From Variovorax paradoxus (lineage in GTDB: Bacteria > Pseudomonadota > Gammaproteobacteria > Burkholderiales > Burkholderiaceae_C): DNA of 64,000 bases. A program made the position numbers and the translations under genes. Positions 6,008-24,243 of this stretch are shown piece after piece. The DNA lies in contig CP063166.1 in assembly GCA_016806145.1 (NCBI GenBank), forward strand, positions 2,418,001-2,482,000. Reading direction: 5' to 3'. Within the stretch, counting starts at the first letter, position 1. Each line of letters begins with the position of its first letter. Under the pieces are notes generated by a model. The model did no database searches and was not told the origin of the DNA. It worked only from the letters and a program-made list of their open reading frames with translations.

Positions 6008-6192
6008 GGCCGAAGCTCCTGTGGTTGCTGCCTTGGCAGTTGGGCCGATTCTAGGAGTCTGCAAGACCGGGGCCCCCAAAGACCGTATGGGGGGTGTTCC
6101 TTAGACGGCGCGCCGTCCGACAGGGGGAGGCGCTTCGCTTCAGCGGACCGGTATGCTCGGGGGTTCGACGCAACAAGACCTTGATCACCATC

Positions 6193-6600
6193 ATGCAAAC
6201 CAAATCATTCCTTGAACTCGCCGATGTCAAGCTGATCGCCGCCGCCGCCGAAGCCGAGGCACTCAAGAACAACTGGGCTGTGACCATCGCCATCGCCGAC
6301 GACGCGGGCAACCTGCTGTGGCTGCAGCGCCTCGACGGCGCGGCCGCGCTGTCCTCGCACATCGCCCCGGCCAAGGCCCACACGGCCGCCATGGGTCGTC
6401 GCGAGAGCAAGGTCTACGAGGACATCATCAACGGCGGCCGCACCGCGTTCCTGACGGCACCGCTGGTGCACGGCCTGCTCGAAGGCGGCGTGCCGATCGT
6501 GAAGGACGGCCACGTGATCGGCGCCGTGGGCGTGAGCGGCGTGAAGTCGAACGAAGACGCGCAGGTCGCCAAGGCCGGCATCGCTGCACTGGGTCTCTGA
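6193..6600 (+). CDS. GlcG/HbpS-family (DUF336) protein
   Basis: This small 135-aa cytoplasmic protein of the GlcG/HbpS fold begins MQTKSFLELADVKLIAAAAE. The family marker is VTIAIADDAGNLLWLQRLDGA followed by a Lys/Ala-rich helix and the PIVKDGHVIGAVGVSG segment that closes the domain. Family members bind heme, cobalamin or small acids, and function here cannot be assigned from sequence. It is monocistronic, with a strong hairpin terminator 36 bases after its stop, at the border of the iron island. Confidence 0.88.
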   Translation: MQTKSFLELADVKLIAAAAEAEALKNNWAVTIAIADDAGNLLWLQRLDGAAALSSHIAPAKAHTAAMGRRESKVYEDIINGGRTAFLTAPLVHGLLEGGVPIVKDGHVIGAVGVSGVKSNEDAQVAKAGIAALGL

Positions 6601-7013: not shown

Positions 7014-7043
7014 CTCGGGTTCCTCTTATCGAAGCGATGACTG

Positions 7044-7062
7044 AATGATAATAATTCTCATC
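7044..7062 (-). promoter_or_regulatory. Putative Fur box upstream of hemP
   Basis: The plus-strand sequence AATGATAATAATTCTCATC closely matches the 19-bp Fur consensus (GATAATGATAATCATTATC). It sits just upstream of hemP in the exbD-hemP gap. Confidence 0.75.
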
Positions 7063-7108
7063 AAGAAGTCAATCGCCGCGATGAAAAATTTTGTGACCCG
7101 CGCGGCAG

Positions 7109-7527: not shown

Positions 7528-8241
7528 TCAGCCCTTCTTGAGCGGAACCACGATCGATTCGGCGCCGCTCTGGACGCGGGCACCGGTCACGAAGTAGGCG
7601 TGCAGGTCGTGCGCGAAGGCATTGAGCTTGGTCAGCACGAACTTGTTGCCGCGCACCAGGGCGTTGTAGCCGAGCACGGCGGGGATGGCGACCGCGAGGC
7701 CCAGGGCCGTCATGATCAGCGCTTCGCCGATCGGACCCGCGACCTTGTCGATCGTGGCCTGGCCGGCCGAGCCGATGCTCATCAGCGCGTGGTAGATGCC
7801 CCAGACGGTACCGAACAGGCCGATGAAGGGCGCGGTCGAGCCGACCGAGGCCAGCACGGCCAGGCCGGTCTGCAGGCGCGCGGTGAAGGCGTCGATGCCG
7901 TTGCGCAGCGAACGCGTGATCCAGTCGCTGACGTCGAGCGCGTCATGCAGGTGCGCCTTGGTGTTGCGGTGGTGGGCGGCGGCTTCGCGGCCCTCGAGCG
8001 CCAGGGCGCGGAAGGGGTTGCTGTCGTCCTTGCCGAGCTTGTTGAGCGCGGTGGCGAAGTCCTCGCTGTGCCAGAAGTCCTGCGACTGCTTGGCGAGACG
8101 CTTGTAGCGGATGACGTCGAGCGCCTTGACGATGATCACGATCCACGACGCGAGCGACATGGCGATCAGCAGCACCGCGACGGCCTTGGTGACGAAGTCG
8201 CCTTGGTGCCAGACATTCATCAAGCCAAATTGGGAATCCAT
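7528..8241 (-). CDS. exbB: Biopolymer transport protein ExbB (MotA/TolQ/ExbB family)
   Basis: ExbB forms the pentameric proton channel that drives TonB. The 237-aa product has a first helix near residues 15-38 (KAVAVLLIAMSLASWIVIIV), a cytoplasmic loop, and the two conserved helices LAVLASVGSTAPFIGLFGTVWGI and IGEALIMTALGLAVAIPAVLGYN, with the Thr and Glu residues of the family. It starts 11 bases after the tonB stop. Association with tonB and heme/iron genes favours ExbB over TolQ. Confidence 0.94.
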   Translation of the reverse strand: MDSQFGLMNVWHQGDFVTKAVAVLLIAMSLASWIVIIVKALDVIRYKRLAKQSQDFWHSEDFATALNKLGKDDSNPFRALALEGREAAAHHRNTKAHLHDALDVSDWITRSLRNGIDAFTARLQTGLAVLASVGSTAPFIGLFGTVWGIYHALMSIGSAGQATIDKVAGPIGEALIMTALGLAVAIPAVLGYNALVRGNKFVLTKLNAFAHDLHAYFVTGARVQSGAESIVVPLKKG

Positions 8242-8252
8242 AGGGGTCTCAG

Positions 8253-8956
8253 TTACTTAGGTTGGTTGAAAACGATGGGCGCGGGCAGCATGAAGAGGGT
8301 CTCGTCGCTCGCGTTCGGATAGTTGCTCACGGTCACGGACGACTTCAGCACCGCATCGCGGGCGGCGCGGTCGAGGCGGTCGAAGCCGCTGGACTTGAGG
8401 ATTTCGGCGCGGCGCACGACGCCGTTGCGGTTGAAGTACACGGCGATGGTCACCGTGCCCGATTCGCCGAGCCGCGAGCTCAGCTGCGGATAGACGGGCG
8501 CCGGCTGGCGCAGCCACTGCGCCTGCGCGGCCGTCACCTCGACCACCTTGGGCGGTGCGGGCGGCGCCGGCGGAGGGCCGGCGGCGCGGGAGGCGCGGGC
8601 GGCGGCGAGGGCGGCGTCGTCGGTGCGGGCGGCGGCGGTTCCGGATCGCCCACCGGCGCTTGCGGCGCCGGCGTGGGCTTGGGTTCGCGGATGGCCTGCG
8701 GACGCGGCGGCGGCGGTGCCTTCACGCGCGGCTGGGGCGGCGGTGGAGGAGGGGGCGGCGGCGGAGGCGTGGGCTTCGGCGGCTCGATGAACTGGCTCAT
8801 GATCTCGACCGGGATCACCACTTCGGCGGCCCGGCGGAGCAGGCCGCTCTGCAGCGCCCAGAGCGCGGCGGCGTGGAAGACGATCACGCCGCCGGCAATG
8901 GCAGCATTGCGCGAGAGGCCGAGAAAGGTAGGAGGGGGGGCAAAGCGGTCAGACAC
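8253..8956 (-). pseudogene. tonB: TonB, reading frame broken by a one-base shift in the Pro-rich spacer
   Basis: TonB couples ExbBD energy to outer-membrane receptors. Two frames together make one TonB. The upstream frame (to 8534) gives the N-terminal anchor (NAAIAGGVIVFHAAALWALQ) and a long Pro-rich spacer, then runs into Arg-rich nonsense before its stop. The downstream frame supplies the C-terminal domain (QPAPVYPQLSSRLGESGTV, GVVRRAEILKSSGFDRLD). Joining them near 8573-8580 needs one extra base and restores PPAPPKVVEV, giving about 234 aa. The start is taken at GTG 8956 (MSDRFAPPP). The cause may be a sequencing error in a GC-rich repeat or a real mutation; no classical slippery heptamer is visible. 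Confidence 0.8.
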
Positions 8957-9029
8957 GATCAACCATTCGAGTGCGAGCACGTGGTCACGTGCCCCGATTG
9001 CAGCAAAACCGCTACGACGACGTCTACTT

Positions 9030-9104
9030 CTATTTACGAAGGATCCACCAGACGGAGCCCGCCACCAGGATCAGGCTGCCGCCGAGTGCAGAGACGAGTT
9101 CCAT
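9030..9104 (-). CDS. Candidate 24-aa single-pass membrane peptide
   Basis: A 24-codon frame, MELVSALGGSLILVAGSVWW plus ILRK, starts at 9104. A good ribosome binding site (AAGGAAAG) stands about 7 bases upstream. The peptide is one hydrophobic helix with a basic C-terminal tail. It overlaps the 3' end of bfd in another frame and precedes tonB. I do not recognise it. The support is the binding site and the composition only, so it may be spurious. Confidence 0.4.
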   Translation of the reverse strand: MELVSALGGSLILVAGSVWWILRK

Positions 9105-9343
9105 GCTTTGCTTTCCTTGATGGAGTTGGCAAGCTGGATCGACTTCGGTTCCGATTCGCAGTGCAGGGCCGCGACCGGGTGCGAAGCGCTGCACTGCGCG
9201 ACGATATCGCGCGCACATCCTTCACATTGGCCACACTGGGTGGCCACGCCGAGTTCGAATTGCACTTCGTCGAAGGTCATCCCCGCGCGCACATGGCGTG
9301 CGATTTCGCGGTCGGAGACTCGGCGGCAAATGCAAACGATCAT
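9071..9343 (-). CDS. bfd: Bacterioferritin-associated ferredoxin
   Basis: This [2Fe-2S] protein donates electrons to bacterioferritin for iron release. The 90-aa product starts MIVCICRRVSDREIARHVRAG and carries the four cluster cysteines as C-x-C near the N-terminus and C-x2-C in ATQCGQCEGCARD. The domain fills about residues 1-55. The ~35-residue tail is longer than in most Bfd proteins and shares its DNA with a small membrane-peptide frame. A Fur-box-like element stands about 50 bases upstream. bfr itself lies 8.3 kb away in the same island. Confidence 0.92.
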   Translation of the reverse strand: MIVCICRRVSDREIARHVRAGMTFDEVQFELGVATQCGQCEGCARDIVAQCSASHPVAALHCESEPKSIQLANSIKESKAWNSSLHSAAA

Positions 9344-9473: not shown

Positions 9474-10154
9474 CTATATCTCCGACCAGAGCCGAAGCAG
9501 GTTGTGGTAGTGGCCGGTGAGGGCCACGGTTTCCTCGGATTCGCCCAGCCGGGCGCGCAGTTTCTGGATGTTCTGGTCCAGTTCGAACAGCATCGAGCGC
9601 TGCTGGTCGTTGCGCACCATGCTCTGGGCCCAGAAGAAGGCGCACACGCGCGCGCCCCGGGTCACCGGGTGCACGCGGTGCAGGCTGCTCGACGGATACA
9701 GGATCAGGTCGCCGGCCGGCAGCTTGACCTCGTGCGAGCCGTAGGTGTCGACCACCTCGAGCTCGCCGCCGTCGTAGTCGTCGGGGTCGCAGAGAAACAG
9801 CGTGCACGACAGGTCGGTGCGCAGCGGCTGCTCGCTGCCGGGCACGGCGCGCACCGCGCCATCGACGTGCAGGCCGTAGTGCTCGCCACCCTCGTAGCGG
9901 TTGAACAGCGGCGGCACGAAGCGCGCGGGCAGGGCGGCCGAGAAGAACAGCGGGTTGCGCGCCAGCGCGGCCAGCACGGTCTTGGCGAGCTCGCGCCCGA
10001 CCGGCGAATGCTCGGACAGCTGCCGGTTGCGCTTGACCTGCGCGCCCTGGTCGCCGACGGTCTCGCGCCCGTCGACCCACTGGGTGGCATCGAGCGTGGC
10101 GCGCATCCTGCGCACCTGGTCCGGGCTCAGCACTTCGGGCACATGCAGCATCAT
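9474..10154 (-). CDS. piuC: PKHD-type Fe(II)/2-oxoglutarate hydroxylase PiuC/YbiX
   Basis: The 226-aa product begins [17 protein letters not shown] and has the dioxygenase iron triad in [10 protein letters not shown] (His and Asp) and [15 protein letters not shown] (His), followed by the Arg that holds 2-oxoglutarate. Length and sequence pattern match E. coli YbiX and Pseudomonas PiuC. These genes sit beside catecholate receptor genes (fiu, piuA), as here: the receptor lies immediately upstream. A terminator hairpin between the two suggests partial readthrough or a separate promoter. The substrate of PiuC is not established. Confidence 0.92.
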
Positions 10155-10255: not shown

Positions 10256-12664
10256 TCAGAACGCGAAGTTCGCCGTGACCTTGAACGAGCGCGGCGTGCC
10301 CGGCGTGTAGCGGTAGCCCGACTTGTTGATGGCCGCCACGTAGTCCTTGTCGAACAGGTTGTAGACGTTGAGTTGCAGGTCGACGTTCTTGTTGATCCGG
10401 TAGGACGCCATGGCGTCGACCACCCAGTACGACTCGACGTAGGCCGGCGTACCGACCGCGCCGTCCGTGCCGCGGTACAGCTTGCCGTTGTAGCGCGCGC
10501 CGCCACCGATCGTCAGGCCGAACGGAAGCTGGTAGGTGGTCCACAGCGTGAAGGCGCGCTTCGGCGTGTAGGCCAGCGAGGTCGAGCCGTCGGCCAGCAC
10601 CGAGGGGCCGCTGAGCACGCGGGTGTTCATCGTCGTGAAGCCGGTGGTCACGCCCCAGTTGTCGGTGATCGCGCCCGACACGCCGAGCTCGATGCCTTGC
10701 ACGCGCTTCTTGCCGGTCTGGTAGTACTGCTGCGAGATCGAGTCCTGCACCACTTCGTTGCTGACGTCGGTGCGGTAGAGCGCGGCCGTCAGCGCGAGGC
10801 GCTTGTTGAGCACGTCCCACTTGGTGCCGAGTTCGTAGGTCTTGGCCTTCTGCGGCAGGAAGTCGGTGCGCGCGGCGCTGTTGCCGCTGCCGCCTGCGGC
10901 GAGCTGGAAGTTGGCGCCGCCCGGGGGCTGGGCCGCAGTGCCGTAGGCCGCGTAGACGCTGCTGTTCTCGGTCGGCTTGTAGACCAGGCCGATCTTGCCG
11001 GACCACAGGCTGTCCGAGAGCTTGAGGCGCGTCGGCGTGATGGTCGCGGTCTGCGGGTTGTTGCCGGTGCGTGCCAGGGTCAGCGCGGTCGCGTCGTAGT
11101 CGGTCGAGTAGTGGTCGTAGCGCAAGCCGCCGGTGAGCTGCCACTGTTCGTTGAACTTGATCGTGTCGAAGGCGAACAGGCCGATCGTGTCGGTGCTGCC
11201 GTCGGAGCCGGTGCCGTTGGGGAGCCGGTTGTAGCCGAGCACGTTGCGATCGGGCGCATACAGGTTGGCGGCGGGCCACGAGCCGGCCGGCGCGAAAGTG
11301 GTGCCGACGGTCGAATAGCCGGCCGCGTAGTAGTTGTTCGCGCGCTGCGTTTCGCGGATGAACTCGAGGCCGCCGTTGAAGGTGTGGCTGATGCTGCCGG
11401 TGTTGAACTTCGCCGAGACGCTGGTCTGGTTGGTGAAGATCGTGTTGGCCTGGTCCTTGTTGGTCGGCAGGTTGCGCGTGATCGTCCAGGTCGCGGGATT
11501 CGTCGGCACCACCGTGTTGATGAAGCCGGAGTTCACCGCGGGCAGCTGGCCGACGCCGGCCGTCGACGCGGTGAGGCCGCCGCCCATGAACGCGGTCAGC
11601 ATGTAGTCCTGCTGCGTCTTCGCGTAGCGGGTGGTGTTGCGGATCGTGATGTCGGGCGTGAGGTCGTGTTCGACGCGCGCGGTGAACATGTCGGTGGTGA
11701 CATGGTCGAAGTCCGAGCTGGTGCCGTAGAAGTTGCTCGAGTCGACGCGCTGCGCGTAGTTCAGGTAGGTGCGGCGGGCGAGGCCGCTGCGGATGGCCGT
11801 CGCATCAGGCGTCGAGTAGCCCGGCAGCCCGATCGTCGGCACGCCGCCATCGGGCACGTTGTTCTGCTTGACGTGCACGTAATCGAGGTACACGCGCGTC
11901 GGGCTGTTCAGGCCGAAGGCCAGCGAGGGCGCGATCGACCAGCGCTTGTTCTTCACGAAATCGCGGCCGGCCACGCCGGCGTCCTCGGCCACGGCGTTCA
12001 GGCGGAAGGCCGCGCCGATGCCGTTCTCGCCGCTCAACGACTTGTTCCAGTCGATGCTGCCGCGCTTGAAGTCGGCGCTGCCGAAACCCAGCGAGCCCGT
12101 GAAGCTGTCGTCGAGCTTGGGCTTCTTGGTCACGAGGTTGATGTAGCCGGTGGGCGAGGTGCGGCCCACGTCGGTGCCCGAGGGGCCCTTCACGACTTCG
12201 ACCTGGTCGATGTTGAAGGTGTCGCGCGAGATCGAGCCGAGGTCGCGGATGCCGTCGACGAAGATCGCGCTCGAGCTGTCGAAGCCGCGCATGAACACCG
12301 CGTCGCCCGTGTTGGTGTTGCCGTTCTCCCCGAGGAAGAAGGTGCCCACGCCGGGGGTGTTGCGCAGTGCTTCGGTCAGCGTGGTGGCGCCCTGGTCGCG
12401 CAGCACCTGCTCCTTGATCACCTGCACGGTCTGCGGCGTGTTCACCAGCGGCGCCGTGAACTTGGTGTTGGCCGAGTTGTCGGCCTTGAAGTCGGAGGCG
12501 ACCGAGCCCTCGACGCGGATCTCGGGCAGCACGCGCGAAGGCTGCTGCTGCTGGGCGAAGGCGGGGGCGGAGAGGGCGATCAGCGTGGCGGCTGCGGCGC
12601 CCGAGACCTGGGGAACGGCGCGCGCGACAGCGTGCTTCCGGCTCTTGATATAGGAGTTGGCCAT
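10256..12664 (-). CDS. fiu: TonB-dependent catecholate siderophore receptor, Fiu-like
   Basis: The 802-aa outer-membrane receptor has a signal peptide (cleavage after APAFAQ), then a short basic/polar stretch and the plug domain ([69 protein letters not shown]), and a 22-strand barrel ending in Phe (VTANFAF). The strand pattern and neighbouring piuC suggest the Fiu/PiuA group that imports ferric catecholates such as DHB-type compounds; the ligand is inferred. A Fur-box-like site lies about 130 bases upstream. Confidence 0.88.
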
Positions 12665-12792
12665 GAAGGTTCTCGAAAATGAAAAAACGGCCCTGAGAAC
12701 TCGACTGGCGATGCCCTGCGCGTGTGCCGTAGAGGCACCGGGGGCTGGCTGGGTGAGTTGACCTGCGGAAGGGCGAAGGTAAAAACCGTATC

Positions 12793-12811
12793 AAATGATA
12801 ATGTTTATCAA
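12793..12811 (-). promoter_or_regulatory. Putative Fur box upstream of the Fiu-like receptor
   Basis: The core AAATGATAATGTTTATCAA matches the Fur consensus well. It is framed by CCGTAT (12786-12791) and ATACGG (12811-12816), which makes a larger imperfect palindrome. It lies in the 298-base gap between the receptor start and the flavoprotein stop, where no gene is visible. Confidence 0.75.
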
Positions 12812-12962
12812 TACGGGTCTTAGAACTTATGCCCGCAGGCGCTTTGTAAAGTAGATACTTTGTTGCACTGAAGCAACTCGCATGCTGGGGGAATTGTTGA
12901 CGGCGCGCAGATGCTGGTGGGCGTCGCCCTCCAGTGCCACGCAGGCCGGTGGCTTCCGTGCC

Positions 12963-14324
12963 TCAGTACACGTCGCGCCTGTAGCGCCCCGAGCCGACCA
13001 GCTCGGCCCACAGCGCCTCGCCCGCGACCTGCCGCAGCGCTGCATCGACGCCCGCTGCCATCCCCTGCAGGCTGCCGCACACGTACACCGCCGCGCCGCG
13101 CGCAAGCCAGTCGCGCAGCGCATCGGCGCGCTGCAGCAGCCGGTGCTGCACGTAGAGCCGTTCGGCCTGGTCGCGCGAGAACACCATGTCGAGCTCCGCC
13201 AGCGCGCCCTCGCGCTGCCAGGCCTCGATCTCGTCGCGGCAGAGGAAGTCGTGCGCCGCATGGCGCTCGCCGAACACCAGCCAGTTCTCGTACCGGCCCG
13301 CCGCGACGCGCGCGCGCAGATGGGCGCGCAGGCCGGCCAGGCCCGTGCCGTTGCCGATCAGGATCAGCGGACGCGAGGCGTTGCCCTCGAGGCGAAAGCC
13401 GCGGTGCGGGCGCAGTCGCAGCGCCACCGTGTCGCCGATGGCCAAGGTCGAGGTCAGGTGGCCCGAGGCCATGCCCAAGGTGCCGTCGGGATGCTGTTCC
13501 TGCCGCACCAGCAGCTGCAGTTCGCCGTCGGTGGGCAGCGAGGCGATCGAGTAGTCGCGCGGCCGTGCCGGATCGCTCGCGACCGCCATCTGCACCAGAT
13601 CGCCCGAGTCCCAGGCCGGCATCGCGCCGGCCTGCGGCACCAGGCCGAGCAGGAACACCGGCGCGCCCGCGCTGCCGGGGTTGAGCAGGTTGCGATGCGC
13701 GAGGCGCCATGGAACGAAGGCGCTGCTTTCTTGCTCGTCAGGCGCGACCTCGGCATCGCCCCACTGGGCATGCCACGCGGCCAGCGCCTCGGGATCGCCG
13801 TTGTCGACCTCGACGCGCGCGAAGGAGGGCGTCGCGCCCCGGACTTGCAGCCAGTCGTCGAGCTGGCGCCCGAAGCCGCAGAAGTTCGCGTACTGGCGGT
13901 CGCCCAGGGCCAGCACCGCATAGCGCAGCGCGGACAGGTCGGGCTGTTCGGCCATTGCCTTTTCGGCGAACAGGCTGGCGCCGTCGGGCGCGTCGCCTTC
14001 GCCGTAGGTGCTGGCCACGAAGACGGCCTGCCGCGCGTCGCGCAAGGTGGCGGCGTCGAGGGCGTTGAGTTCCATCACGCGCACCGGCGTACCGGCCGCG
14101 CGCAGGCGGCGCGCGGTCTGCCAGGCGATGGCTTCGGCCTGGCCGGTCTGGCTGGCGAACAGCACCAGCGTCGATGGCACCGTGCCGTCGCCCGCCAGCG
14201 CCTGCGCGGCGCGCGCGGTGGCCGCGACGGCGCGGCGCTCGCGCGTGTAGATCGCCAGGCACATCGCGCCGTAGGCGGCCACGGTGGAGCCCGCGGCCAG
14301 CGCGCGCAGCAGCGTGTCGTTCAT
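12963..14324 (-). CDS. Flavodoxin-FAD/NADPH reductase (CysJ-like diflavin flavoprotein)
   Basis: The 453-aa product has an N-terminal membrane-like segment (LLRALAAGSTVAAYGAMCLA), a flavodoxin domain (FASQTGQAEAIAWQTA; STYGEGDAPDGASLF; GDRQYANFCGFG), an FAD domain with RDYSIASLP, and an NADPH domain (LIGNGTGLAGL; VYVCGSLQGMA) ending RRDVY. It resembles CysJ but is anchored at the membrane and sits in an operon with PepSY, DUF2271, DUF4198 and ApbE genes, not with cysI. I infer that it passes NADPH electrons to the membrane PepSY protein. Its start overlaps the apbE stop by four bases (ATGA). Confidence 0.88.
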   Translation of the reverse strand: MNDTLLRALAAGSTVAAYGAMCLAIYTRERRAVAATARAAQALAGDGTVPSTLVLFASQTGQAEAIAWQTARRLRAAGTPVRVMELNALDAATLRDARQAVFVASTYGEGDAPDGASLFAEKAMAEQPDLSALRYAVLALGDRQYANFCGFGRQLDDWLQVRGATPSFARVEVDNGDPEALAAWHAQWGDAEVAPDEQESSAFVPWRLAHRNLLNPGSAGAPVFLLGLVPQAGAMPAWDSGDLVQMAVASDPARPRDYSIASLPTDGELQLLVRQEQHPDGTLGMASGHLTSTLAIGDTVALRLRPHRGFRLEGNASRPLILIGNGTGLAGLRAHLRARVAAGRYENWLVFGERHAAHDFLCRDEIEAWQREGALAELDMVFSRDQAERLYVQHRLLQRADALRDWLARGAAVYVCGSLQGMAAGVDAALRQVAGEALWAELVGSGRYRRDVY

Positions 14325-15349
14325 GCGGCGGCGGTCCGTTCGGTCCAGGCCGGGGTCGCGCGCGGGCTCGGCGGTCCGTCGCCCTGTGCCGCATGCGCGA
14401 CGAACAGCGCCGCGATGTCGCGCGCCTCGGCGAAGGCGAAGCCTTCCTCGGGACCGAGCACCGTCAGCACGGTGGCCAACGCATCGGCGTGCATGCACTG
14501 CGCATGCAGCACCGTGACGCTCGCGAGCCCGGCTGGCACGGGTTCGCCGCTGCGCGGATCGATGGTGTGCGACCAGCGGCGGCCTGCGTGCTCGCGCTGG
14601 TGCCAGCGGTCGCCGGAGGTGGCGATCGCGAGGCCGTCGAGCGCCACGTGCACCGGCGCGGGCAGTTCGCCGTCGACCTGCACGCGCCATGGCTGTCCGT
14701 CGGGGCGGCGGCCCACGCCGCGCAGTTCGCCGCCGATCTCGAACAGGAAGTTCTCGAGGCCCAGCGCCTGCAGGGCCTCGACGCCGTGATCGACCGCGAA
14801 GCCCTTGGCGATGCCCGACAGGTCGAGCGCGAAGCCGCCGGGCTGGGTCAGCGTGGCCGTTGCGTCATCGGCCATGGCGAAGGCGAGCTTTCGCCAGCCC
14901 GTGCGCTCGCGTGCCGCTTCAAGGGCGTCCGTGTCGATGGGGCCATCGTGCGCATCGGGGCCGAAACCCCAACTGGCGACCAGTGCGCCGACCGTCGGAT
15001 CGATCGCGCCGCCGCTGTCCTCGGCCCATTGCAGCGCGCAGGCCATCACGCGCGCGAACTCGGCCGACAGCGTGTGCCGCGTGCCCGCCGGCGCCCGGTT
15101 GAAGCGCGAGATCTCGGCGTCGGCCTCCCAGTGGCTCATCTGCACGATCACGCGCGCGAGCGCCGATTCGACCGCCTCGCGCACGTCGGCCAGCGGCCGC
15201 ATGCCGGGGTTGTCGAAGCGCAGCGACCAGGTCGTGCCCATGGTCCGGCCGGCCAGCTGATGCAGGCGGGCCGGATCGGCGCGGCGCGGCACCGCCGCGT
15301 TGGCGTAGCCGTCGTGCCAGGAACTGCGGGAGGCGAAAGAAATGCCCAA
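14321..15349 (-). CDS. apbE: FAD:protein FMN transferase ApbE
   Basis: ApbE attaches FMN covalently to Thr or Ser residues of exported redox proteins, using FAD and Mg2+. The 342-aa product shows the family blocks AGRTMGTTWSLRFDNPG, EISRFNRAPAGT, GGFALDLSGIAKGFAVD, SGDRWHQREHAGRRWSHTIDPRSGEPV and a late HADALATVLTVLG. No obvious lipobox is seen. The likely substrate is the DUF2271 protein two genes upstream, which has a matching acceptor motif. It overlaps the reductase start by four bases and follows the DUF4198 gene by 26 bases. Confidence 0.93.
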   Translation of the reverse strand: MGISFASRSSWHDGYANAAVPRRADPARLHQLAGRTMGTTWSLRFDNPGMRPLADVREAVESALARVIVQMSHWEADAEISRFNRAPAGTRHTLSAEFARVMACALQWAEDSGGAIDPTVGALVASWGFGPDAHDGPIDTDALEAARERTGWRKLAFAMADDATATLTQPGGFALDLSGIAKGFAVDHGVEALQALGLENFLFEIGGELRGVGRRPDGQPWRVQVDGELPAPVHVALDGLAIATSGDRWHQREHAGRRWSHTIDPRSGEPVPAGLASVTVLHAQCMHADALATVLTVLGPEEGFAFAEARDIAALFVAHAAQGDGPPSPRATPAWTERTAAA

Positions 15350-15375
15350 GGCGCTGCGCGAAACGTCGCTCGGGA

Positions 15376-16185
15376 TCAGGGCATCACTTCGAGCGTGGCC
15401 GCATAGCTCAGGCGGCGCTCCTTGGCGTTCGGCACGGTGGTCTTGTTGTCGCGCGTGGACACGTCGAGCCAGTACATGCCGGCGCTCGGCCAGGTCACGC
15501 TGAACTGGCCCTTGTCGTCGGTCTTGACCTTGAACTCCTCGAGCTTGTCGCGGTACTGCGTGTTGCCCGCGGTCACCGTGACCTCGAGGTCCTTGGCGGG
15601 CTGGCCGTCCAGGTGCAGCGTGAAGCTGGCCTTCTCGCCCTTGGCGAGGTCGGTCGGGCTGCCGGTGGAGATCAGCTCCAGGCCCTGGCCGATCGGCTTG
15701 AGCGCCGAGGGCTTGCCGACGGTGACGAAGGTCTCGATGCGGCCCGAGGACTGGGTGATGGTCACGTCCTGCGCATCGGCCGGGATCTCCTTGGCGATGG
15801 TCTCGGGCGTGCCGCGCGCGCGCTTGTTCTGGCCGGTGGCCTTGTCCTTCCAGCTCGCGAAGGCGCCGCCGTTGATCACGGCGATGCGGTAGGTGCCGGC
15901 CTGCGCAACCGGCACGTCGAACACGTTGCGCTGCTTGAGCTTGGCCTCGCTCTCGGGCTTGACGGCGCTGCCGTCGGGCGCGGTGATCTGCAGGCCTTCG
16001 AGGCGCAGCGGCGCATGGTTGGCGACGAACAGGTCGTTCGACACCGCGGCGTCGACGCTGACCGTGTCGGCCTTCGAGAACACGGTGCCCGAGGGCAGCA
16101 GCCAGGCGTTGTGCGCCTGGGACAGCGGGGCGATGGCGACGAAGGCGGCGGCAATGGCGGCGGCGCGCAGGCGGAGGATGTTCAT
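15376..16185 (-). CDS. Periplasmic DUF4198 protein
   Basis: The 269-aa product has a signal peptide (MNILRLRAAAIAAAFVAIAP, cleavage after SQA), so the mature protein begins with His (HNAWLLPSGTV), as is usual in DUF4198 (PF10670), where the N-terminal histidine is a candidate metal ligand. The C-terminal half looks like an Ig/CNA-B-type beta domain (SFTLHLDGQPAKDLEVTVTA, GMYWLDVSTRD). It lies between the DUF2271 and apbE genes in the same operon. Its likely role is metal or siderophore handling in the periplasm; this is an inference. Confidence 0.85.
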   Translation of the reverse strand: MNILRLRAAAIAAAFVAIAPLSQAHNAWLLPSGTVFSKADTVSVDAAVSNDLFVANHAPLRLEGLQITAPDGSAVKPESEAKLKQRNVFDVPVAQAGTYRIAVINGGAFASWKDKATGQNKRARGTPETIAKEIPADAQDVTITQSSGRIETFVTVGKPSALKPIGQGLELISTGSPTDLAKGEKASFTLHLDGQPAKDLEVTVTAGNTQYRDKLEEFKVKTDDKGQFSVTWPSAGMYWLDVSTRDNKTTVPNAKERRLSYAATLEVMP

Positions 16186-16232
16186 GGCGATTCCTTGAAG
16201 GTGAGCGGCGAAGGTGCGGGGCGGTGTGGCGG

Positions 16233-16766
16233 TCAGGGCTTGAGCTCGAGCTTGATCTCGCCCAGTTCTTCCTTGCCCGAAGCGGTCGGCTGCGAGGCGC
16301 TGGTCGGTGGCCACTGGAACGGGATGCTCACGACCTCGCGGCCGCCGACTTCGCGCGCGGCTTCCACCACCAGCTTGTAGCTGCCCGGCGCCAGTTGCGG
16401 CATCGGCGCGCTGCCGTCGGTGAAGCTCAGCTGGTGCTTGCCCGCGGGCTTGGTCGCGCCGGTCACGCCGTCGATCGGCACCGACAGGTCGCGGCCGCCG
16501 CGGCGCCACCACTGGCGCATGTCCTTGAGCCACTTGGTGCCTTCGCCCTCGGGGTTGTTGGTCTTGGTGCGCACGTCGTACCAGACCGCCAGCGTGCCGG
16601 CCACGGTGTTGTCGGCGCGCTCGATCCAGGTCGCGATGTAGGGGCGGTGGTATTCCGACACGTTGAGGCGCGGCACCTCGATGTTGACGCCGAGGCTGGC
16701 CGAGAAGGCCGGGGCGGCGAAGAGCGCCGACATGGCGAGCGGTGCGAGCGAGTAGCGGATGTGCAC
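16233..16766 (-). CDS. DUF2271 periplasmic protein with ApbE flavinylation motif
   Basis: The 177-aa product (start GTG 16766; ATG-type alternatives give non-signal N-termini) has a signal peptide (MHIRYSLAPLAMSALFAAPA, cleavage after AFSA) and the DUF2271 domain. At residues 99-105 it reads DGVTGAT, which fits the D-x-x-[ST]-G-A-[TS] motif that ApbE modifies with FMN, so Thr105 is the predicted acceptor. The gene lies between pepSY and DUF4198 in the operon with apbE. I infer a periplasmic flavoprotein that receives electrons from the PepSY protein. Confidence 0.88.
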   Translation of the reverse strand: MHIRYSLAPLAMSALFAAPAFSASLGVNIEVPRLNVSEYHRPYIATWIERADNTVAGTLAVWYDVRTKTNNPEGEGTKWLKDMRQWWRRGGRDLSVPIDGVTGATKPAGKHQLSFTDGSAPMPQLAPGSYKLVVEAAREVGGREVVSIPFQWPPTSASQPTASGKEELGEIKLELKP

Positions 16767-16804
16767 GGGAGGAACCTCTTTCTTCGAAGCGGACGGAACG
16801 AGAG

Positions 16805-17458
16805 TCAATGAATGAAAAGCAGCGCGAGCAGCACCGGCACCACCAGCCCCATGCCGACCATCGGCCAGGTGAAGGGACGGTTGCCCGCGTGCATCTTGAG
16901 GATGAACAGGCCGGTGATCGAGAACACCAGCGCGGCACCCGCGAAGATGTCGATGAACCAGCTCCAGGCGGTGCCGGTGTTGCGGCCCTTGTGCAGGTCG
17001 TTGAAGTAGGAGAGCCAGCCGCGGTCGGTGCGCTCGTATTCGGCCTCGCCGTCGGCCAGGCTCAGGCGCAGCCAGGCGTCGCCGCCGGGGCGGGGCAGCG
17101 ACAGGTAGATCTCGTCGTCCGACCATTCGGCCTCGCGGCCGGCGGTGTCGATGTCCCAGCGCTGGCGCACCCAGGACTGGAGTTCGGCGGGCAGCGCGGC
17201 CTTGCCCTTGATCGCCTTGTTCGACTTGACCTCGGCCATGGCCGCTTCGAGGCGGGCGCGCAGCGCCTCGTCGATCGTCGCGTGCAGCCGCGTGACCTGC
17301 GGCTTGCCCTCGATCTGTCCCGCGTGGTTGAGCGTGAAGCCGGTGACGCTGAACAGCACCATGCCGATCAGGCAGATGGCGGAGCTGACCCAGTGCCATT
17401 CGTGCAGGGTTTTGAGCCAGTAGGCACGGCGGCGGTTGTCGGGAGAGGCGGCATTCAT
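16805..17458 (-). CDS. PepSY-associated transmembrane protein
   Basis: The 217-aa inner-membrane protein has a first helix at about 23-45 (WVSSAICLIGMVLFSVTGFT), a periplasmic PepSY-like part with conserved LNHAG and GDAWLRLSLADGEAEYER motifs, and two C-terminal helices (IDIFAGAALVFSITGLFILK and MVGMGLVVPVLLALLFI). PF16357-type proteins of this kind are proposed transmembrane electron carriers. It is the first gene of the flavin operon. No Shine-Dalgarno is obvious, and a TAAAAT box lies just 12 bases upstream of the start, which could mean a very short leader. Confidence 0.87.
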   Translation of the reverse strand: MNAASPDNRRRAYWLKTLHEWHWVSSAICLIGMVLFSVTGFTLNHAGQIEGKPQVTRLHATIDEALRARLEAAMAEVKSNKAIKGKAALPAELQSWVRQRWDIDTAGREAEWSDDEIYLSLPRPGGDAWLRLSLADGEAEYERTDRGWLSYFNDLHKGRNTGTAWSWFIDIFAGAALVFSITGLFILKMHAGNRPFTWPMVGMGLVVPVLLALLFIH

Positions 17459-17482
17459 TGGCGGCCGGCATTTTAGGCGCGC

Positions 17483-17501
17483 AAATGAGAATTGATTTCG
17501 T
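17483..17501 (-). promoter_or_regulatory. Weak Fur-box-like site upstream of the PepSY operon
   Basis: The plus strand reads AAATGAGAATTGATTTCGT. One half-site (TGAGAAT) is good and the other is poor. It lies about 25 bases upstream of the PepSY start and next to the TAAAAT box (17470-17475 on the reverse strand). Confidence 0.45.
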
Positions 17502-18370: not shown

Positions 18371-18397
18371 TGAAAGATGCCATTTGGTAGCTATACT
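18370..18397 (+). promoter_or_regulatory. Sigma70-type promoter of ahpC
   Basis: TTGAAA (18370-18375), a 16-base spacer and TATACT (18392-18397) give a near-consensus promoter about 40 bases before the ahpC start. Confidence 0.7.
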
Positions 18398-18436
18398 CAT
18401 GGTTCGCTTCTTTCATCACCACCAAGGAAACCAGCA

Positions 18437-19000
18437 ATGTCCCTGATCAACACCCAAGTCCTGCCCTTCAAGACCCAGGCCTACCTCAACGGCAAGTTCA
18501 TCGATGTGTCCGACGAGACGCTGAAGGGCAAGTGGTCCGTGCTGATCTTCATGCCGGCTGCCTTCACCTTCAACTGCCCGACCGAAGTCGAAGACGCCGC
18601 CGACAACTACCCCGAGTTCCAGAAGCTGGGTGCCGAGGTCTACATCGTGACCACCGACACGCACTTCTCGCACAAGGTGTGGCACGACACCTCGCCGGCC
18701 GTCGGCAAGGCCAAGTTCCCGCTGGTGGGCGACCCGACCCACACGCTGACCAACAACTTCGGCGTGCACATCCCCGAAGAAGGCCTGGCACTGCGCGGCA
18801 CCTTCGTGATCAACCCCGAAGGCATCATCAAGACCGCCGAAGTGCACTCCAACGAGATCGCCCGCGACGTCAAGGAAACCCTGCGCAAGCTCAAGGCAGC
18901 CGTCTACACCGCCGCCCACCCGAACGAAGTCTGCCCGGCCAAGTGGAATGAAGGCGACAAGACCATCGCCCCGTCGTTCGACCTCGTCGGCAAGATCTAA
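18437..19000 (+). CDS. ahpC: Alkyl hydroperoxide reductase subunit C
   Basis: This is a two-cysteine peroxiredoxin that reduces H2O2 and organic hydroperoxides. The 187-aa product has the peroxidatic cysteine in AAFTFNCPTEVED (near residue 48; family usual is ADFTFVCPTEL) and the resolving cysteine in EVCPAKW near residue 166. The start ATG 18437 follows a GGAAA ribosome binding site. It is regulated by an OxyR-type site and followed by a terminator, then ahpF. The pairing with an AhpF of the NADH type, rather than AhpD, indicates the enteric-type system. Confidence 0.96.
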   Translation: MSLINTQVLPFKTQAYLNGKFIDVSDETLKGKWSVLIFMPAAFTFNCPTEVEDAADNYPEFQKLGAEVYIVTTDTHFSHKVWHDTSPAVGKAKFPLVGDPTHTLTNNFGVHIPEEGLALRGTFVINPEGIIKTAEVHSNEIARDVKETLRKLKAAVYTAAHPNEVCPAKWNEGDKTIAPSFDLVGKI

Positions 19001-19017
19001 GGCGCTCCGCGCGAAAG

Positions 19018-19049
19018 CCCGGGCGCTCACGAGGCCCCCGGGTTTTTTT
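19018..19049 (+). terminator. Terminator between ahpC and ahpF
   Basis: CCCGGG arms with a 13-base interior (partly paired) are followed by seven T residues. It likely attenuates rather than fully blocks ahpF transcription, which would make AhpC more abundant. Confidence 0.8.
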
Positions 19050-19091
19050 GTCCCCAATTGATAGTTTCCAGTTATCGAAAGAGAGTCCCTC

Positions 19092-20648
19092 ATGCTCGAC
19101 GCCAGCACCAAAGCCCAATTGAAGAGTTACCTCGACCGCGCCACGCAGCCGATCGAGATCGTCGCCTCGCTCGACGACAGCAAGGCCTCGGACGAAGTGC
19201 TGTCGCTGCTGAAGGACGTGGCCGAAGCCTCGTCGCTGGTCCGCCTGAGCGAAAGCCGCGACGACAACCACCGCAAGCCCTCGTTCTCGGTCAACCGCCC
19301 GAGCGAAAACCACGGCCCGCGCTTCGCCGGCCTCCCGATGGGGCATGAATTCACCTCGCTGATCCTCGCGCTGCTGCAGATCGGCGGCTACCCGCCGAAG
19401 GTGGAGCAGGCCGTGCTCGACCAGATCAAGGCGCTCGACGGCGATTTCGAGTTCGAGATCTACGTCTCGCTGACCTGCCACAACTGCCCCGACGTGGTCC
19501 AGGCGCTGAACCTGATGGCGGTGCAGAACCCGCGCATCCGTACCACGATGATCGAGGGCGGCACCTTCCAGGAAGAAGTGAAGGAACGCCAGGTGATGGC
19601 CGTGCCCACCGTGTTCCTCAACGGCACCGAGTTCGGCCAGGGGCGCATGAGCCTGGAAGAGATCCTCGCGAAGATCGACAACAGCGGCGTCGAGCGCGAA
19701 GCCAAGAAGATCGCCGCCAAGGACCCGTTCGACGTGCTGATCGTCGGCGGCGGCCCCGCGGGTGCCGCGGCGGCCGTGTACGCGGCGCGCAAGGGCATCC
19801 GCACCGGCGTGGCTTCCGAGCGTTTCGGCGGCCAGGTGCTCGACACCATGGGCATCGAGAACTTCATCTCGATCAAGGAGACCGAGGGACCGAAGTTCGC
19901 CCATGCGCTCGAGGAGCACGTGCGCGACTACGAGGTCGACATCATGAACCTGCAGCGCGCCAAGGCGTTGATTCCGGGCGAGGGCTTGATCGAGGTGCAG
20001 CTCGAGAGCGGCGCGTCGCTCAAGAGCAAGTCCGTGATCATCTCGACCGGCGCGCGCTGGCGCAACATCAACGTGCCCGGCGAGCACGAGTTCAAGAACA
20101 AGGGCGTGGCCTACTGCCCGCACTGCGACGGCCCGCTGTTCAAGGGCAAGCGCGTGGCGGTCATCGGCGGCGGCAACTCGGGCGTCGAGGCGGCGATCGA
20201 CCTGGCCGGCATCGTGGGCCATGTCACGCTGATCGAGTTCGACACCCAACTGCGCGCCGACGCCGTGCTGCAGCGCAAGCTGCACAGCCTGAAGAACGTC
20301 GACGTGTTCACCAACGCGCAGACCACCGAGATCACCGGCGACCAGAAGGTCAACGGCCTGGTCTACAAGGACCGCGCGACCGGCGAAGCCAAGCGCGTCG
20401 ACCTCGAGGGCGTGTTCATCCAGATCGGCCTGGTGCCCAACACCGACTGGCTCAAGGGCACGATCGAGCTGTCGAAACACGGCGAGATCGTGGTGGATGC
20501 CAAGGGCCAGACCTCGGTGCCCGGCGTGTTCGCCGCGGGCGACGCGACCACGGTGCCGTTCAAGCAGATCATCATCGCGGCCGGCGACGGCGCGAAGGCG
20601 GCACTCGGTGCATTCGATCACCTGATCCGCACTTCAGCCCCAGCCTGA
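19092..20648 (+). CDS. ahpF: Alkyl hydroperoxide reductase subunit F
   Basis: This NADH-dependent flavoprotein reduces AhpC. The 518-aa product has two N-terminal thioredoxin-like folds with the disulfide CHNCPDVV near residue 130, then a thioredoxin-reductase core with the FAD motif [20 protein letters not shown], the redox pair CPHCDGPLF and an NADH-binding [19 protein letters not shown]. It ends [12 protein letters not shown]. It is located 91 bases after ahpC behind a hairpin. Confidence 0.96.
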
Positions 20649-20668
20649 GTGGGTGCATCGGCGGCCAG

Positions 20669-20685
20669 ATGAGAATTGTTCTCAT
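20669..20685 (+). promoter_or_regulatory. Putative Fur box upstream of the heme receptor
   Basis: ATGAGAA-TTG-TTCTCAT is a perfect 7-3-7 inverted repeat resembling Fur sites, located 140-175 bases before the receptor start. A TAAAAT box (20685-20690) abuts it as a possible -10 element. Confidence 0.7.
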
Positions 20686-20810
20686 AAAATAGTTTTCAGA
20701 GGCTCGCGCGCCGCGCATCGCGGCGAGAACACCAACAAAAGGGAACCGAGCCTCCCGCCGCCAGCCAGGTCAGCCGCGCCGCTTCCGCCGCGCCGAGGTC
20801 CAGCAAGCCG

Positions 20811-23111
20811 TTGTTCATTCCAACGCTTGCCGGACCTTTTTTCGTGGCCGCCACCTCTACCCGTCCTTCGCGCTTCGCGCGCTCGTCTTCCTCTTCTTCC
20901 CGACCCGCGCGCGCGCGCCGCGCGCTGCTGCCCTGGCTGATCGCCAGCGGCTTCGGTGCCACGGCACCGGCCTGGGCCCAGCAGCCGCCGCAACAGGTCG
21001 CCGCGCTCGGCGAGATCGTGGTCAGCGGCTCGCGCTCCGAACAGGAGAAGGACGCGCTGCCGGTCAGCGTCGAAGTGCTCAACCGCGAGACGATCGAATC
21101 GAAGCAGATCAACGACATCCGCGACGCGGTGCGCGACCTGCCGAACGTCTCGGTCAAGCGCTCGCCGGCACGCTTCGGCCTCGCCCAGGGCAACACCGGC
21201 CGCGACAACAACGCCGGCTTCAACATCCGCGGCCTCGACGGCAACCGCGTGCTGCTGCTGACCGACGGCATCCGCACGCCGCGCAGCTATGTCTTCAGCG
21301 CCAACGCCTTCGGCCGCGACTACTTCGACATCGGCCTGATCGAGCGCATCGAGATCCTCAAGGGCCCGGCCTCCGCGCTCTACGGCTCCGACGGCCTCGC
21401 GGGCCTGGTCAATTTCATCACGCGCGATCCGTCCTCGTTCCTGCGCGACGGCAAGCGCTTCGGCGGCAGCGCCAGCGTCGGCTACAGCGGCGACGACAAC
21501 GGACGGCGCGCCGGCGTCACGCTCGCGGGCAAGCCCAACGAGACCTTGCAGTGGCTGCTCTCGGCCAACCTCGGGCGCTCGCACGAGCTCGAGAACCGCG
21601 GCAGCTACAACGCGCCCAACGCCGACCGCACCACGCCCAACCCGCAGCGCGACCGCAGTGGCGCGCTGCTGGCCAAGGTCATCCTCACGCCGAATGCCGA
21701 CCAGCGCCACGGCTTCACCTTCGAGCACATCGAGAAGACCAGCCGCTACGACCTGCTGTCGGGCCTCGCGAAGCCACCCTATGCCTCGACCTCGGTGGTC
21801 GGCCTCGACGCCCGCACCGACCTGCAGCGCGACCGCTTCACCTACGACGGCCGGCTGCGCCTGAATTCGGTCATGGCCGACAGCCTGCAGGCCACGGTGA
21901 GCTACCAGAAGTCGAAGTCGCGCGAGTACATCTTCGAGGACCGCTTCAGCGCCGCCGACCGTTCGCGCGACGTGACCTACGACGAGAGCACCTGGCAGTT
22001 CGGCCTGCAGGTCGACAAGCTGGTGCGCACCGGCGACTGGGCACAGAAGATCACCTACGGCTTCGACTACGCGCGCACCAACGTGGAGAACCTGCAAACC
22101 GGCCTGGTGCCGCCTGCCGGCGAGAGCTACCCGCTCAAGCGCTTCCCCGACACGCGCGAGACCTCCTCGGCCTTCTATGTGCAGGACGAGTTCATCCACG
22201 ACCGCTGGAGCATCACGCCAGGCATCCGCTTGGACCGCTTCTCGCTCGATGCCGACCAGGCCGGCTTCAACGCGCAGGCGGTCTCGCTCTCGGGCTCGGC
22301 GGTCTCGCCCAAGCTCGGCGTGCTGTTCCGCGCCACGCCGCAATGGAGCGTCTACGGCAACTACGCCTCGGGCTTCAAGGCGCCGAACGCGTTCCAGGTC
22401 AACAACTTCTTCGAGAACACGATCTCGGGCTACCGCACCATCCCGAACCCCAACCTCAAGCCCGAGAAGAGCCAGAACGTCGAGCTCGGCGTGCGCGGGC
22501 GCACCGGCGTGCTGAACTTCGACGTCGCCGCCTTCACCGGCAACTACAAGGACCTGATCGAGAACGACCGCCAGGTCGGCGGCGTGTTCGGCTCGCGCGT
22601 GAACCCGGCCACCTTCCAGTCGGTCAACATCGGCCGCGCGCGCATCAGCGGCTTCGAGGTCAAGGGCGAGCTCGACTTCACCGACAACGGCAATGGCTTC
22701 TCGGTGCCCTTCGCCTGGGGCCAGACGCGCGGGCGCGATCGCAGCAACGACCGGCCGCTGAACTCCATCGATCCGCGCAAGATCAACCTCGGCCTGGCCT
22801 ACAAGGCGCCGGCCTGGTCGGTGCGGCTCGACGCGGTGCACCATGCGGCCAAGAAGCGCTCCGACGTGGATGCGGCCGAGATCACCACCGGCGGCGTGCA
22901 GTTCCTCACGCCCTCGGCGACCACGCTGGACCTGAGCGCGCAATGGCGCATCAGCCGCGACCTGCGCCTGAACGCCTCGATCACGAACCTCACGAACAAG
23001 CGCTACTGGATGTGGAGCGACGTGCGCGGCCTGACCTCCACCGCGCTGATCCGCGACGCCTACACGCAGCCGGGACGCAGCTTCAACGTCTCGCTCGTGG
23101 CCGATTTCTGA
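20811..23111 (+). CDS. bhuR: TonB-dependent heme/hemoglobin receptor
   Basis: This outer-membrane receptor is of the hemoglobin/transferrin/lactoferrin group. The 766-aa frame (TTG start 20811; GTG 20844 is an alternative) has a signal region ending TAPAWA-QQ, a plug domain (IVVSGSRSEQEKDALPVSVE; IRDAVRDLPNVSVKR; FNIRGLDGNRVLLLTDGIRT; IEILKGPASALYGSDGLAG) and a barrel ending in Phe (SLVADF). It is followed by bhuSTUV in one operon. In Bordetella the bhuR locus is controlled by HurI/HurR; no such pair is visible here, so regulation appears to be through the Fur box alone. Confidence 0.9.
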   Translation: MFIPTLAGPFFVAATSTRPSRFARSSSSSSRPARARRALLPWLIASGFGATAPAWAQQPPQQVAALGEIVVSGSRSEQEKDALPVSVEVLNRETIESKQINDIRDAVRDLPNVSVKRSPARFGLAQGNTGRDNNAGFNIRGLDGNRVLLLTDGIRTPRSYVFSANAFGRDYFDIGLIERIEILKGPASALYGSDGLAGLVNFITRDPSSFLRDGKRFGGSASVGYSGDDNGRRAGVTLAGKPNETLQWLLSANLGRSHELENRGSYNAPNADRTTPNPQRDRSGALLAKVILTPNADQRHGFTFEHIEKTSRYDLLSGLAKPPYASTSVVGLDARTDLQRDRFTYDGRLRLNSVMADSLQATVSYQKSKSREYIFEDRFSAADRSRDVTYDESTWQFGLQVDKLVRTGDWAQKITYGFDYARTNVENLQTGLVPPAGESYPLKRFPDTRETSSAFYVQDEFIHDRWSITPGIRLDRFSLDADQAGFNAQAVSLSGSAVSPKLGVLFRATPQWSVYGNYASGFKAPNAFQVNNFFENTISGYRTIPNPNLKPEKSQNVELGVRGRTGVLNFDVAAFTGNYKDLIENDRQVGGVFGSRVNPATFQSVNIGRARISGFEVKGELDFTDNGNGFSVPFAWGQTRGRDRSNDRPLNSIDPRKINLGLAYKAPAWSVRLDAVHHAAKKRSDVDAAEITTGGVQFLTPSATTLDLSAQWRISRDLRLNASITNLTNKRYWMWSDVRGLTSTALIRDAYTQPGRSFNVSLVADF

Positions 23112-23145
23112 GCCACCCAATCTCACACAGGAAGGACCACAGACG

Positions 23146-24243
23146 ATGAATGCCGACGACATCCGCCACCGTTTCGCCGAGCTGCGCGCCAAGGGCATGC
23201 GCCACAAGGACGCCGCCGCCGCCATGGGGCTGGCCGAGGGCGCCGCGATCGCGGCCCATGCGGGCGCGCACGACCAGGCCCTGCGCGCCACGCCGCTGCG
23301 CGGGCCGTGGCTGGCGCTGCTGCAGTCGCTCGAGGCCTGCGGGCCGCTGCTGGCGCTCACGCGCAACGAGACCACGGTGCACGAGAAGACCGGCATCTAC
23401 GAGAAGCTCTCGGGCGGCGAGGCCATGGGGCTCGCGCTCGGCGAGGCGATCGACCTGCGGCTGTTCTTCAGCCGCTGGCACGCGGGCTTCGCGGTGGACG
23501 AGGCGGCCGCCAATCCCGGCGTGCCGTCCTCGCTGAGCCTGCAGTTCTTCGACGCGCACGGCCTGGCGGTGCACAAGATCTTCGTGCGCGAGGCCACCGA
23601 CCGCGGCGCGCTGCAGGCGGTGATCGATGCGCACGCGGCGCCGGAGCTGCAGGTGGCATTCAAGCCGGCCGAGCCCAAGCCCGCGCCGCGTGCCGACGCC
23701 GCCATCGACGCCGGCGCGCTCGCCGAGGCCTGGCGCGGCATGCAGGACACGCACGAGTTCTTCGGCCTGCTCAAGAAGTTCGATACCGAGCGCCAGCAGA
23801 GCTTCCGGCTCACCGAGGGCGAGTTCACGCAGCGCGCCGCGCTGCATGCGGTGGGCGACCTGCTGCAGGAAGCGTCCTTCAGCGGCACGCCGATCATGGT
23901 CTTCGTCGGCAGCCCCGGCTGCATCCAGATCCACACCGGCCCGGTGGTGCGCGTCGAGCCGATGGAGATGCCGGCGCGTGGCGACGCCGCGCCGATGCGT
24001 TGGCTCAACGTGCTCGACCCCGGCTTCAACCTGCATCTGCGCGAGGACCGCATCGCGAGCGTGTGGATCGTCGAGAAGCCCACCAGCGACGGCCACGTGA
24101 CCTCGGTCGAGGCCTTCGACGGCGAAGGCGAGCTGATGGCGATGTTCTTCGGCGCGCGCAAGCCTGGCGTGCCCGAGCGCGAGGACTGGCGCAAGCTGGT
24201 GCGCGGGCTCGCGCGGCTGTCCGCGACGGCGCCGGCAGCCTGA
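23146..24243 (+). CDS. bhuS: Heme-degrading/heme-carrier protein HemS/HmuS family
   Basis: This cytoplasmic heme-binding and degradation protein is built from two repeats. The 365-aa product begins MNADDIRHRFAELRAKGM, and the repeats are recognisable by NETTVHEKTGIYEKLSG (first half) and by VGSPGCIQIHTGPVVRVEPM and LHLREDRIASVWIVEKPTSDG (second half). Conserved His residues near heme sites are present. It is located 34 bases after the receptor. Confidence 0.9.
   Translation: MNADDIRHRFAELRAKGMRHKDAAAAMGLAEGAAIAAHAGAHDQALRATPLRGPWLALLQSLEACGPLLALTRNETTVHEKTGIYEKLSGGEAMGLALGEAIDLRLFFSRWHAGFAVDEAAANPGVPSSLSLQFFDAHGLAVHKIFVREATDRGALQAVIDAHAAPELQVAFKPAEPKPAPRADAAIDAGALAEAWRGMQDTHEFFGLLKKFDTERQQSFRLTEGEFTQRAALHAVGDLLQEASFSGTPIMVFVGSPGCIQIHTGPVVRVEPMEMPARGDAAPMRWLNVLDPGFNLHLREDRIASVWIVEKPTSDGHVTSVEAFDGEGELMAMFFGARKPGVPEREDWRKLVRGLARLSATAPAA

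Follow-up and report, generated by a model that had tools for sequence, protein, structure and literature searches.

A 64,000-nucleotide stretch of the Variovorax paradoxus genome (contig CP063166.1, positions 2,418,001 to 2,482,000; hereafter the window) carries five genes on its minus strand, from 17458 down to 12963, which encode, in order of transcription, a PepSY membrane protein, a DUF2271 protein, a DUF4198 protein, the flavin transferase ApbE and an NADPH diflavin reductase. The operon is read here, with a probability of roughly 0.7, as an iron-starvation-induced transmembrane electron chain for the reduction of Fe(III) in the periplasm, belonging to the PepSY-like flavinylation type. 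In the proposed chain, NADPH would reduce the membrane-anchored reductase on the cytosolic face, and the reductase would pass electrons one at a time to the small PepSY protein. The latter, probably a homodimer, would carry two hemes, and its periplasmic end would reduce the flavin mononucleotide (FMN) on a threonine of DUF2271. The mobile flavinylated DUF2271 protein would then reduce ferric iron delivered by the neighboring receptor, perhaps with DUF4198 as its metal-handling partner, and Fe(II) would enter via FeoB. The system is ordinary in kind and its anatomy is well supported, with one sharp, testable oddity concerning the export signal of ApbE. The five genes were assigned as follows:

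16805-17458, minus strand: PepSY_TM_like_2 membrane protein of 217 aa (Pfam PF16357, 279.6 bits; PepSY_TM, PF03929, 32.5 bits)
16233-16766, minus strand: DUF2271 protein, GTG start, signal-peptide-like N terminus (Pfam PF10029, 167.4 bits)
15376-16185, minus strand: DUF4198 protein, ATG at 16185, signal-peptide-like N terminus (Pfam PF10670, 169.1 bits)
14321-15349, minus strand: ApbE, flavin adenine dinucleotide (FAD):protein FMN transferase, TTG start assumed (Pfam PF02424, 249.5 bits)
12963-14324, minus strand: NADPH diflavin reductase (Pfam Flavodoxin_1 and NAD_binding_1)

By their start and stop positions, the genes are separated by 38, 47 and 26 bases, and apbE and the reductase gene overlap by 4 bases; because of this tight spacing the five genes likely form a single transcription unit. 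An earlier note on this DNA had named five same-strand genes of these families and an FMN-attachment motif on the DUF2271 protein, and both claims were confirmed. The motif, DGVTGAT, occupies residues 99-105; among nine proteins of the region, no other sequence matched a loose flavinylation pattern. With regard to the features that define the PepSY-like flavinylation system, both PepSY models scored over the cut-off and ApbE and DUF2271 lie in the same gene run. DUF2271 looks signal-bearing by a hydrophobicity heuristic (not SignalP), which was applied at thresholds of 1.3, 1.5, 1.7 and 2.0, and ApbE does not.

The conservation of the gene order was analyzed in a set of named loci obtained through a DUF2271 alignment. 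The set comprises the best 80 of 459 relatives, and the ranking follows similarity to a sequence that itself best matches Brevundimonas. Nine loci were dropped because of short flanks. The five-gene order, which had been suggested as worth seeking in other genomes, was found identical and on one strand in 50 of the 71 usable loci; such recurrence indicates that the arrangement is not due to chance. The reductase alone was absent in 12 loci and ApbE alone in 7, and the rarer departures lacked DUF4198 together with the reductase (one locus) or ApbE together with the reductase (one locus). The 80 loci include Brevundimonas, Caulobacter, Phenylobacterium, Hyphomicrobium, Cupriavidus, Undibacterium, Pseudoxanthomonas, Lysobacter, Dyella, Stutzerimonas and one planctomycete, and those of identical order span Caulobacterales, Burkholderiales, Xanthomonadaceae and others. 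The planctomycete, Rhodopirellula sp. JC639 (L223), has PepSY, DUF2271 and DUF4198 genes with no adjoining ApbE or reductase, and in Brevundimonas albigilva (L184) the apbE and reductase genes are each spread across more than one open reading frame (ORF). DUF2271 scored over the cut-off in 43 of 299 genomes sampled evenly across the phylum and was present in 43 of the 61 genomes of a genus sample. A motif related to flavinylation was recognized in 127 of 141 DUF2271 proteins, the window protein included.

A second architecture was detected in a further set of 60 fetched loci, 17 of them from the genus sample. In 12 of the 60, one long protein beside DUF2271 replaces the separate PepSY protein and reductase, and ApbE is also present in 11 of these. 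All five long proteins that were scanned combine PepSY_TM, Flavodoxin_1 and NAD_binding_1 in a single chain, and the 11 ApbEs group together in a single clade (support 0.998). These natural fusions are the best sequence evidence that the reductase would feed the PepSY protein. Together with the conserved linkage, they point to the NADPH diflavin reductase as the electron donor for this PepSY group and make it a candidate donor for PepSY reductases beyond this group. This may be of wider interest, as the electron donor of FoxB was called unknown (PMC13038864).

The reductase aligned to CysJ (best match 6efv_A, E 6.4e-41) and to P450 reductases. It retains RDYS and SRDQ...YVQ in the alignment with CysJ, which we take to be the FAD and NADPH motifs. 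No connecting domain of the CysJ/CPR kind (PF00667) was found among its Pfam matches at E 0.001. Its N terminus consists of a hydrophobic segment, probably a membrane anchor, followed by RERR, and for this reason the flavin domains should be cytosolic.

The AlphaFold2 model of the PepSY protein (mean pLDDT 92.3) consists of three long helices (7-44, 162-191 and 197-216) and one periplasmic module. H22 and H156 are invariant across 36 aligned sequences, and H45 and H190 vary. By the positive-inside rule, the two invariant histidines should lie on opposite sides of the membrane, which suggests a homodimer holding two hemes, and the protein is accordingly proposed as a heme-b electron conduit. 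Its resemblance to FoxB was weak. In one alternative, siderophore reduction would be carried out by PepSY itself, the role ascribed to FoxB, and DUF2271 would be a partner that only relays or stores electrons. The window protein does match PF03929, and the PepSY_TM relatives FoxB, HiuB and FsrB were described as ferrisiderophore reductases or candidates for this role (PMC13038864, PMC12424826). However, FoxB has two PepSY domains per chain, each flanked by two helices, whereas the window protein is about half the size and has one PepSY-like module with its three long helices. Moreover, DUF2271 adjoins PepSY in all 71 usable named loci, which is a weak argument since the loci were fetched by DUF2271. 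This alternative was judged improbable. In the whole genome (9.44 Mb, three contigs), a second PepSY_TM_like_2 paralogue was found (G000:C1:4781772-4782374, 52.8 bits), as were six strong PepSY_TM matches of 165-240 bits (L124-L129), one of which (L124) adjoins an ORF resembling the end of a TonB receptor.

The route from NADPH through the reductase and PepSY to flavinylated DUF2271, as put forward in the earlier note, is thus supported by the families, motifs, gene order and fusions, and its iron context by the Fur-like sites described below. The support is partial, as the final step, in which DUF2271 would reduce siderophore-bound Fe(III), is a hypothesis here and in the papers as far as consulted.

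The iron context rests on the neighboring genes and on Fur-like sites. About 300 bases with a strong Fur-like site separate the operon from a downstream TonB receptor gene, after which come a PiuC-like and a Bfd-like gene, the last two in agreement with the neighbors named earlier. A consensus of 19 bases, applied in a single orientation, was used to score the sites. The features concerned are:

10256-12664, minus strand: TonB-dependent receptor (Pfam Plug and beta-barrel)
9474-10154, minus strand: PiuC-like PKHD-type 2OG-Fe(II) dioxygenase (Pfam PKHD_C, 79.4 bits)
9071-9343, minus strand: Bfd-like [2Fe-2S] protein (Pfam Fer2_BFD, 38.5 bits)
17481-17499: Fur-like site upstream of pepSY (score 12/19), beginning 23 bases from its start
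12791-12815: Fur-like site ahead of the receptor gene (two 14/19 matches that overlap)

The receptor-side site is the joint best in the window together with 7041-7059 (14/19). The weak Fur box claimed before the operon was found as the 12/19 match; taken alone it is indeed weak, as 17 window positions score at least 12 versus about 2.4 expected from base content. Fur-like sites do recur at this place in relatives: the best match before pepSY in 124 loci averaged 12.07/19 versus 9.98 in shuffled controls, which keep base content only, and the p-values ignore phylogeny. At the 5% level, 68 of the 124 loci had such a match and 56 fell below. PiuC was present in 60 of the 299 genomes of the phylum sample and co-occurred with DUF2271 in 29. 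The two genes lie no more than 10 kb apart in 14 of these, including this one (13 of the 28 others), and farther apart in 15; about 0.1 genomes would be expected within 10 kb, with a p-value that ignores phylogeny. A ferritin-family gene (Pfam) ends at 17687 upstream of the operon, and one FeoB was found in the genome. Taken together, the sequence data suggest that the operon is probably induced by iron starvation.

In Caulobacter, the operon CC3059-3063 was annotated as encoding a transporter, DUF2271, DUF4198, ApbE and a sulfite reductase flavoprotein; its promoter is bound by Fur and its expression rises 12- to 51-fold under iron limitation or fur mutation (PMC3751524, 2013). A fitness loss of this operon under EDTA was described in 2025 (PMC12004947). 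The other alternative for the function of the chain, namely the reduction of another metal or target, such as copper for oxidase maturation or envelope redox repair, could draw on the Bordetella PepSY_TM protein CrpH, which supports heme-copper oxidoreductases (PMC13038864), and on the effect of a zur mutant on CC3060-3061. Nevertheless, the Fur-like sites in many loci, the Fur binding in Caulobacter and the iron genes on both sides of the operon speak for iron, and such a function was regarded as highly unlikely.

Other loci of the window were also recorded. A 14/19 Fur-like site at 7041-7065 lies between an HbpS-like gene (6094-6600) and exbB (7528-8241). The tonB gene beside exbB (8253-8980, minus strand) looks split into a proline-rich ORF (8534-8980) and a TonB_C ORF (8253-8546) in different frames, reflecting either a sequencing error or a real frameshift. 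Upstream of the operon, 18377-24243 is an iron and peroxide region encoding a peroxiredoxin, an AhpF-like reductase, a second TonB receptor and a HemS-like protein.

What the earlier interpretation missed is that ApbE has no visible export signal. In the window, the N termini of DUF2271 and DUF4198 scored 1.90 and 2.6, and that of ApbE, whose closest solved structure is 5mgy_H (E 3.3e-60), scored -0.36. It is the only ApbE found in the genome. Of the four substrate families searched there, DUF2271 is represented once, and FMN_bind, NqrB/RnfD-type and DUF3570 proteins were not found, which leaves DUF2271 as the one predicted substrate. Signal-like N termini were called in 3 of 112 cluster ApbEs (L095, L236 and L251) versus 39 of 40 ApbEs encoded elsewhere, a control group that was not random, being mostly the top of a score-ordered list with cluster-linked ApbEs excluded and a few picked by genome. 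With the threshold raised from 1.3 through 1.5 and 1.7 to 2.0, the cluster ApbEs gave 21, 11, 5 and 3 of 112, and the ApbEs elsewhere gave 39 of 40 throughout; 34 of these 40 also carry a lipobox-like stretch. The corresponding counts were 139, 134, 123 and 72 of 141 for DUF2271 and 117, 117, 116 and 111 of 126 for DUF4198, the fall of DUF2271 at 2.0 being due to its alanine-rich signals. The cluster figure includes 21 ApbEs whose possible start codons all lie fewer than 14 residues ahead of the domain, which were counted as signal-less and whose true starts are unsure, and one identical pair (L106 and L243), so that 111 of the 112 are distinct. An earlier signal rule had flagged 3 of 45 cluster ApbEs (L063, L073 and L095) and undercounted DUF4198 (19 of 47), whose model begins within the signal.

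In the ApbE tree, the 111 cluster ApbEs fell into one clade with 2 of the 40 controls (support 0.647). Of the sampled genomes, 28 have a local ApbE; in one of these it is a signal-bearing ApbE-DUF2271 fusion, and 20 of the remaining 27 had no second ApbE at E 1e-20, as counted by hand. The Caulobacter segnis ApbE (L194) has MNRVLVP shortly before its enzyme domain, and a short RVLIP/RVLVP peptide occurs near the N terminus in this and four other cluster ApbEs (L198, L209, L218 and L190).

A signal-less ApbE facing an exported DUF2271 means either that FMN is attached before export or that ApbE leaves by an unusual route. One reading, given slightly less than even odds, is that ApbE would load DUF2271 with FMN in the cytosol and that the protein would then be exported by Sec with its flavin attached. 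A seven-residue motif can suffice for ApbE, according to a review, and the enzyme could therefore modify a precursor that is nascent or still unfolded. The Sec channel reportedly opens to about 22 Å, which might let a flavin-bearing chain pass (PMC5963308). The same source stresses that Sec substrates are unfolded and says that certain modifications take place only once a protein has been exported, which weighs against flavinylation in the cytosol.

Flavinylation in the periplasm by an ApbE exported nonetheless, either through Sec in the absence of a classical signal or carried along by DUF2271, is a live rival because signal-less Sec export was reported for SodA of Rhizobium (PMC5963308). Furthermore, genomes with an ApbE-less cluster encoded ApbE elsewhere in 15 of 15 sampled cases, and all 13 of those fetched, one per genome, bore a signal, so that a periplasmic ApbE can presumably act on DUF2271. 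However, the cluster ApbEs have no conserved hydrophobic N terminus, and the clear signals on L236, L251 and the ApbE-DUF2271 fusion L095 indicate that a signal can be gained. Export of the signal-less enzyme was considered rather doubtful. Loading in the cytosol would, if true, avoid bringing FAD into the periplasm and, across most of this ApbE clade, invert the order in which exported ApbE substrates are usually processed. The delivery of FAD to ApbE was called obscure (PMC12052999); the mismatch of compartments between ApbE and its substrate bears on this question and could be tested in Caulobacter. No discussion of the mismatch was found in the literature examined, supplements and most subscription papers excepted, and the observation may be new. 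A possible counter-example is the Amantichitinum ursilacus ApbE, whose construct was called signal-peptide-truncated (PMC8238504); this organism is absent from the named loci.

In its main lines, the electron-transfer proposal is already in print and is not new. Méheust et al. (2021; PMC8238504) described PepSY-like clusters with ApbE, DUF2271 and DUF4198 and proposed iron reduction, and the A. ursilacus DUF2271 protein was flavinylated at the motif by its ApbE in work with signal-truncated constructs. The window operon shares with that system the PepSY protein (PF16357/PF03929), ApbE, DUF2271, DUF4198, an NAD-binding module and the proposed function, but its diflavin reductase is separate and anchored, whereas there the NAD-binding domain lies inside the PepSY gene. 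The reductase resembles the CysJ/cytochrome P450 reductase family in its FMN, FAD and NADPH modules with conserved motifs, and it differs in being shorter, in lacking the Pfam connecting domain and in having a hydrophobic N-terminal segment. Like the cytosolic ApbE of Klebsiella, the window ApbE has no signal peptide, but the Klebsiella substrate is a cytosolic fumarate reductase and here the substrate has an export signal (PMC12052999). FoxB, HiuB and FsrB have in common with the window PepSY the PepSY_TM relationship, a predicted heme conduit and a receptor neighborhood; in contrast to them, a single module stands here with DUF2271 and ApbE, and the available accounts of the three describe no flavinylated partner. 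The Caulobacter operon CC3059-3063 (CCNA_03155-03159) matches as well: by its annotation it encodes these five families in this order, and it is Fur-repressed. Judged by locus tags, it lies apart from the receptor-dioxygenase pair CCNA_00028-00027, whereas in V. paradoxus both genes follow the operon directly.

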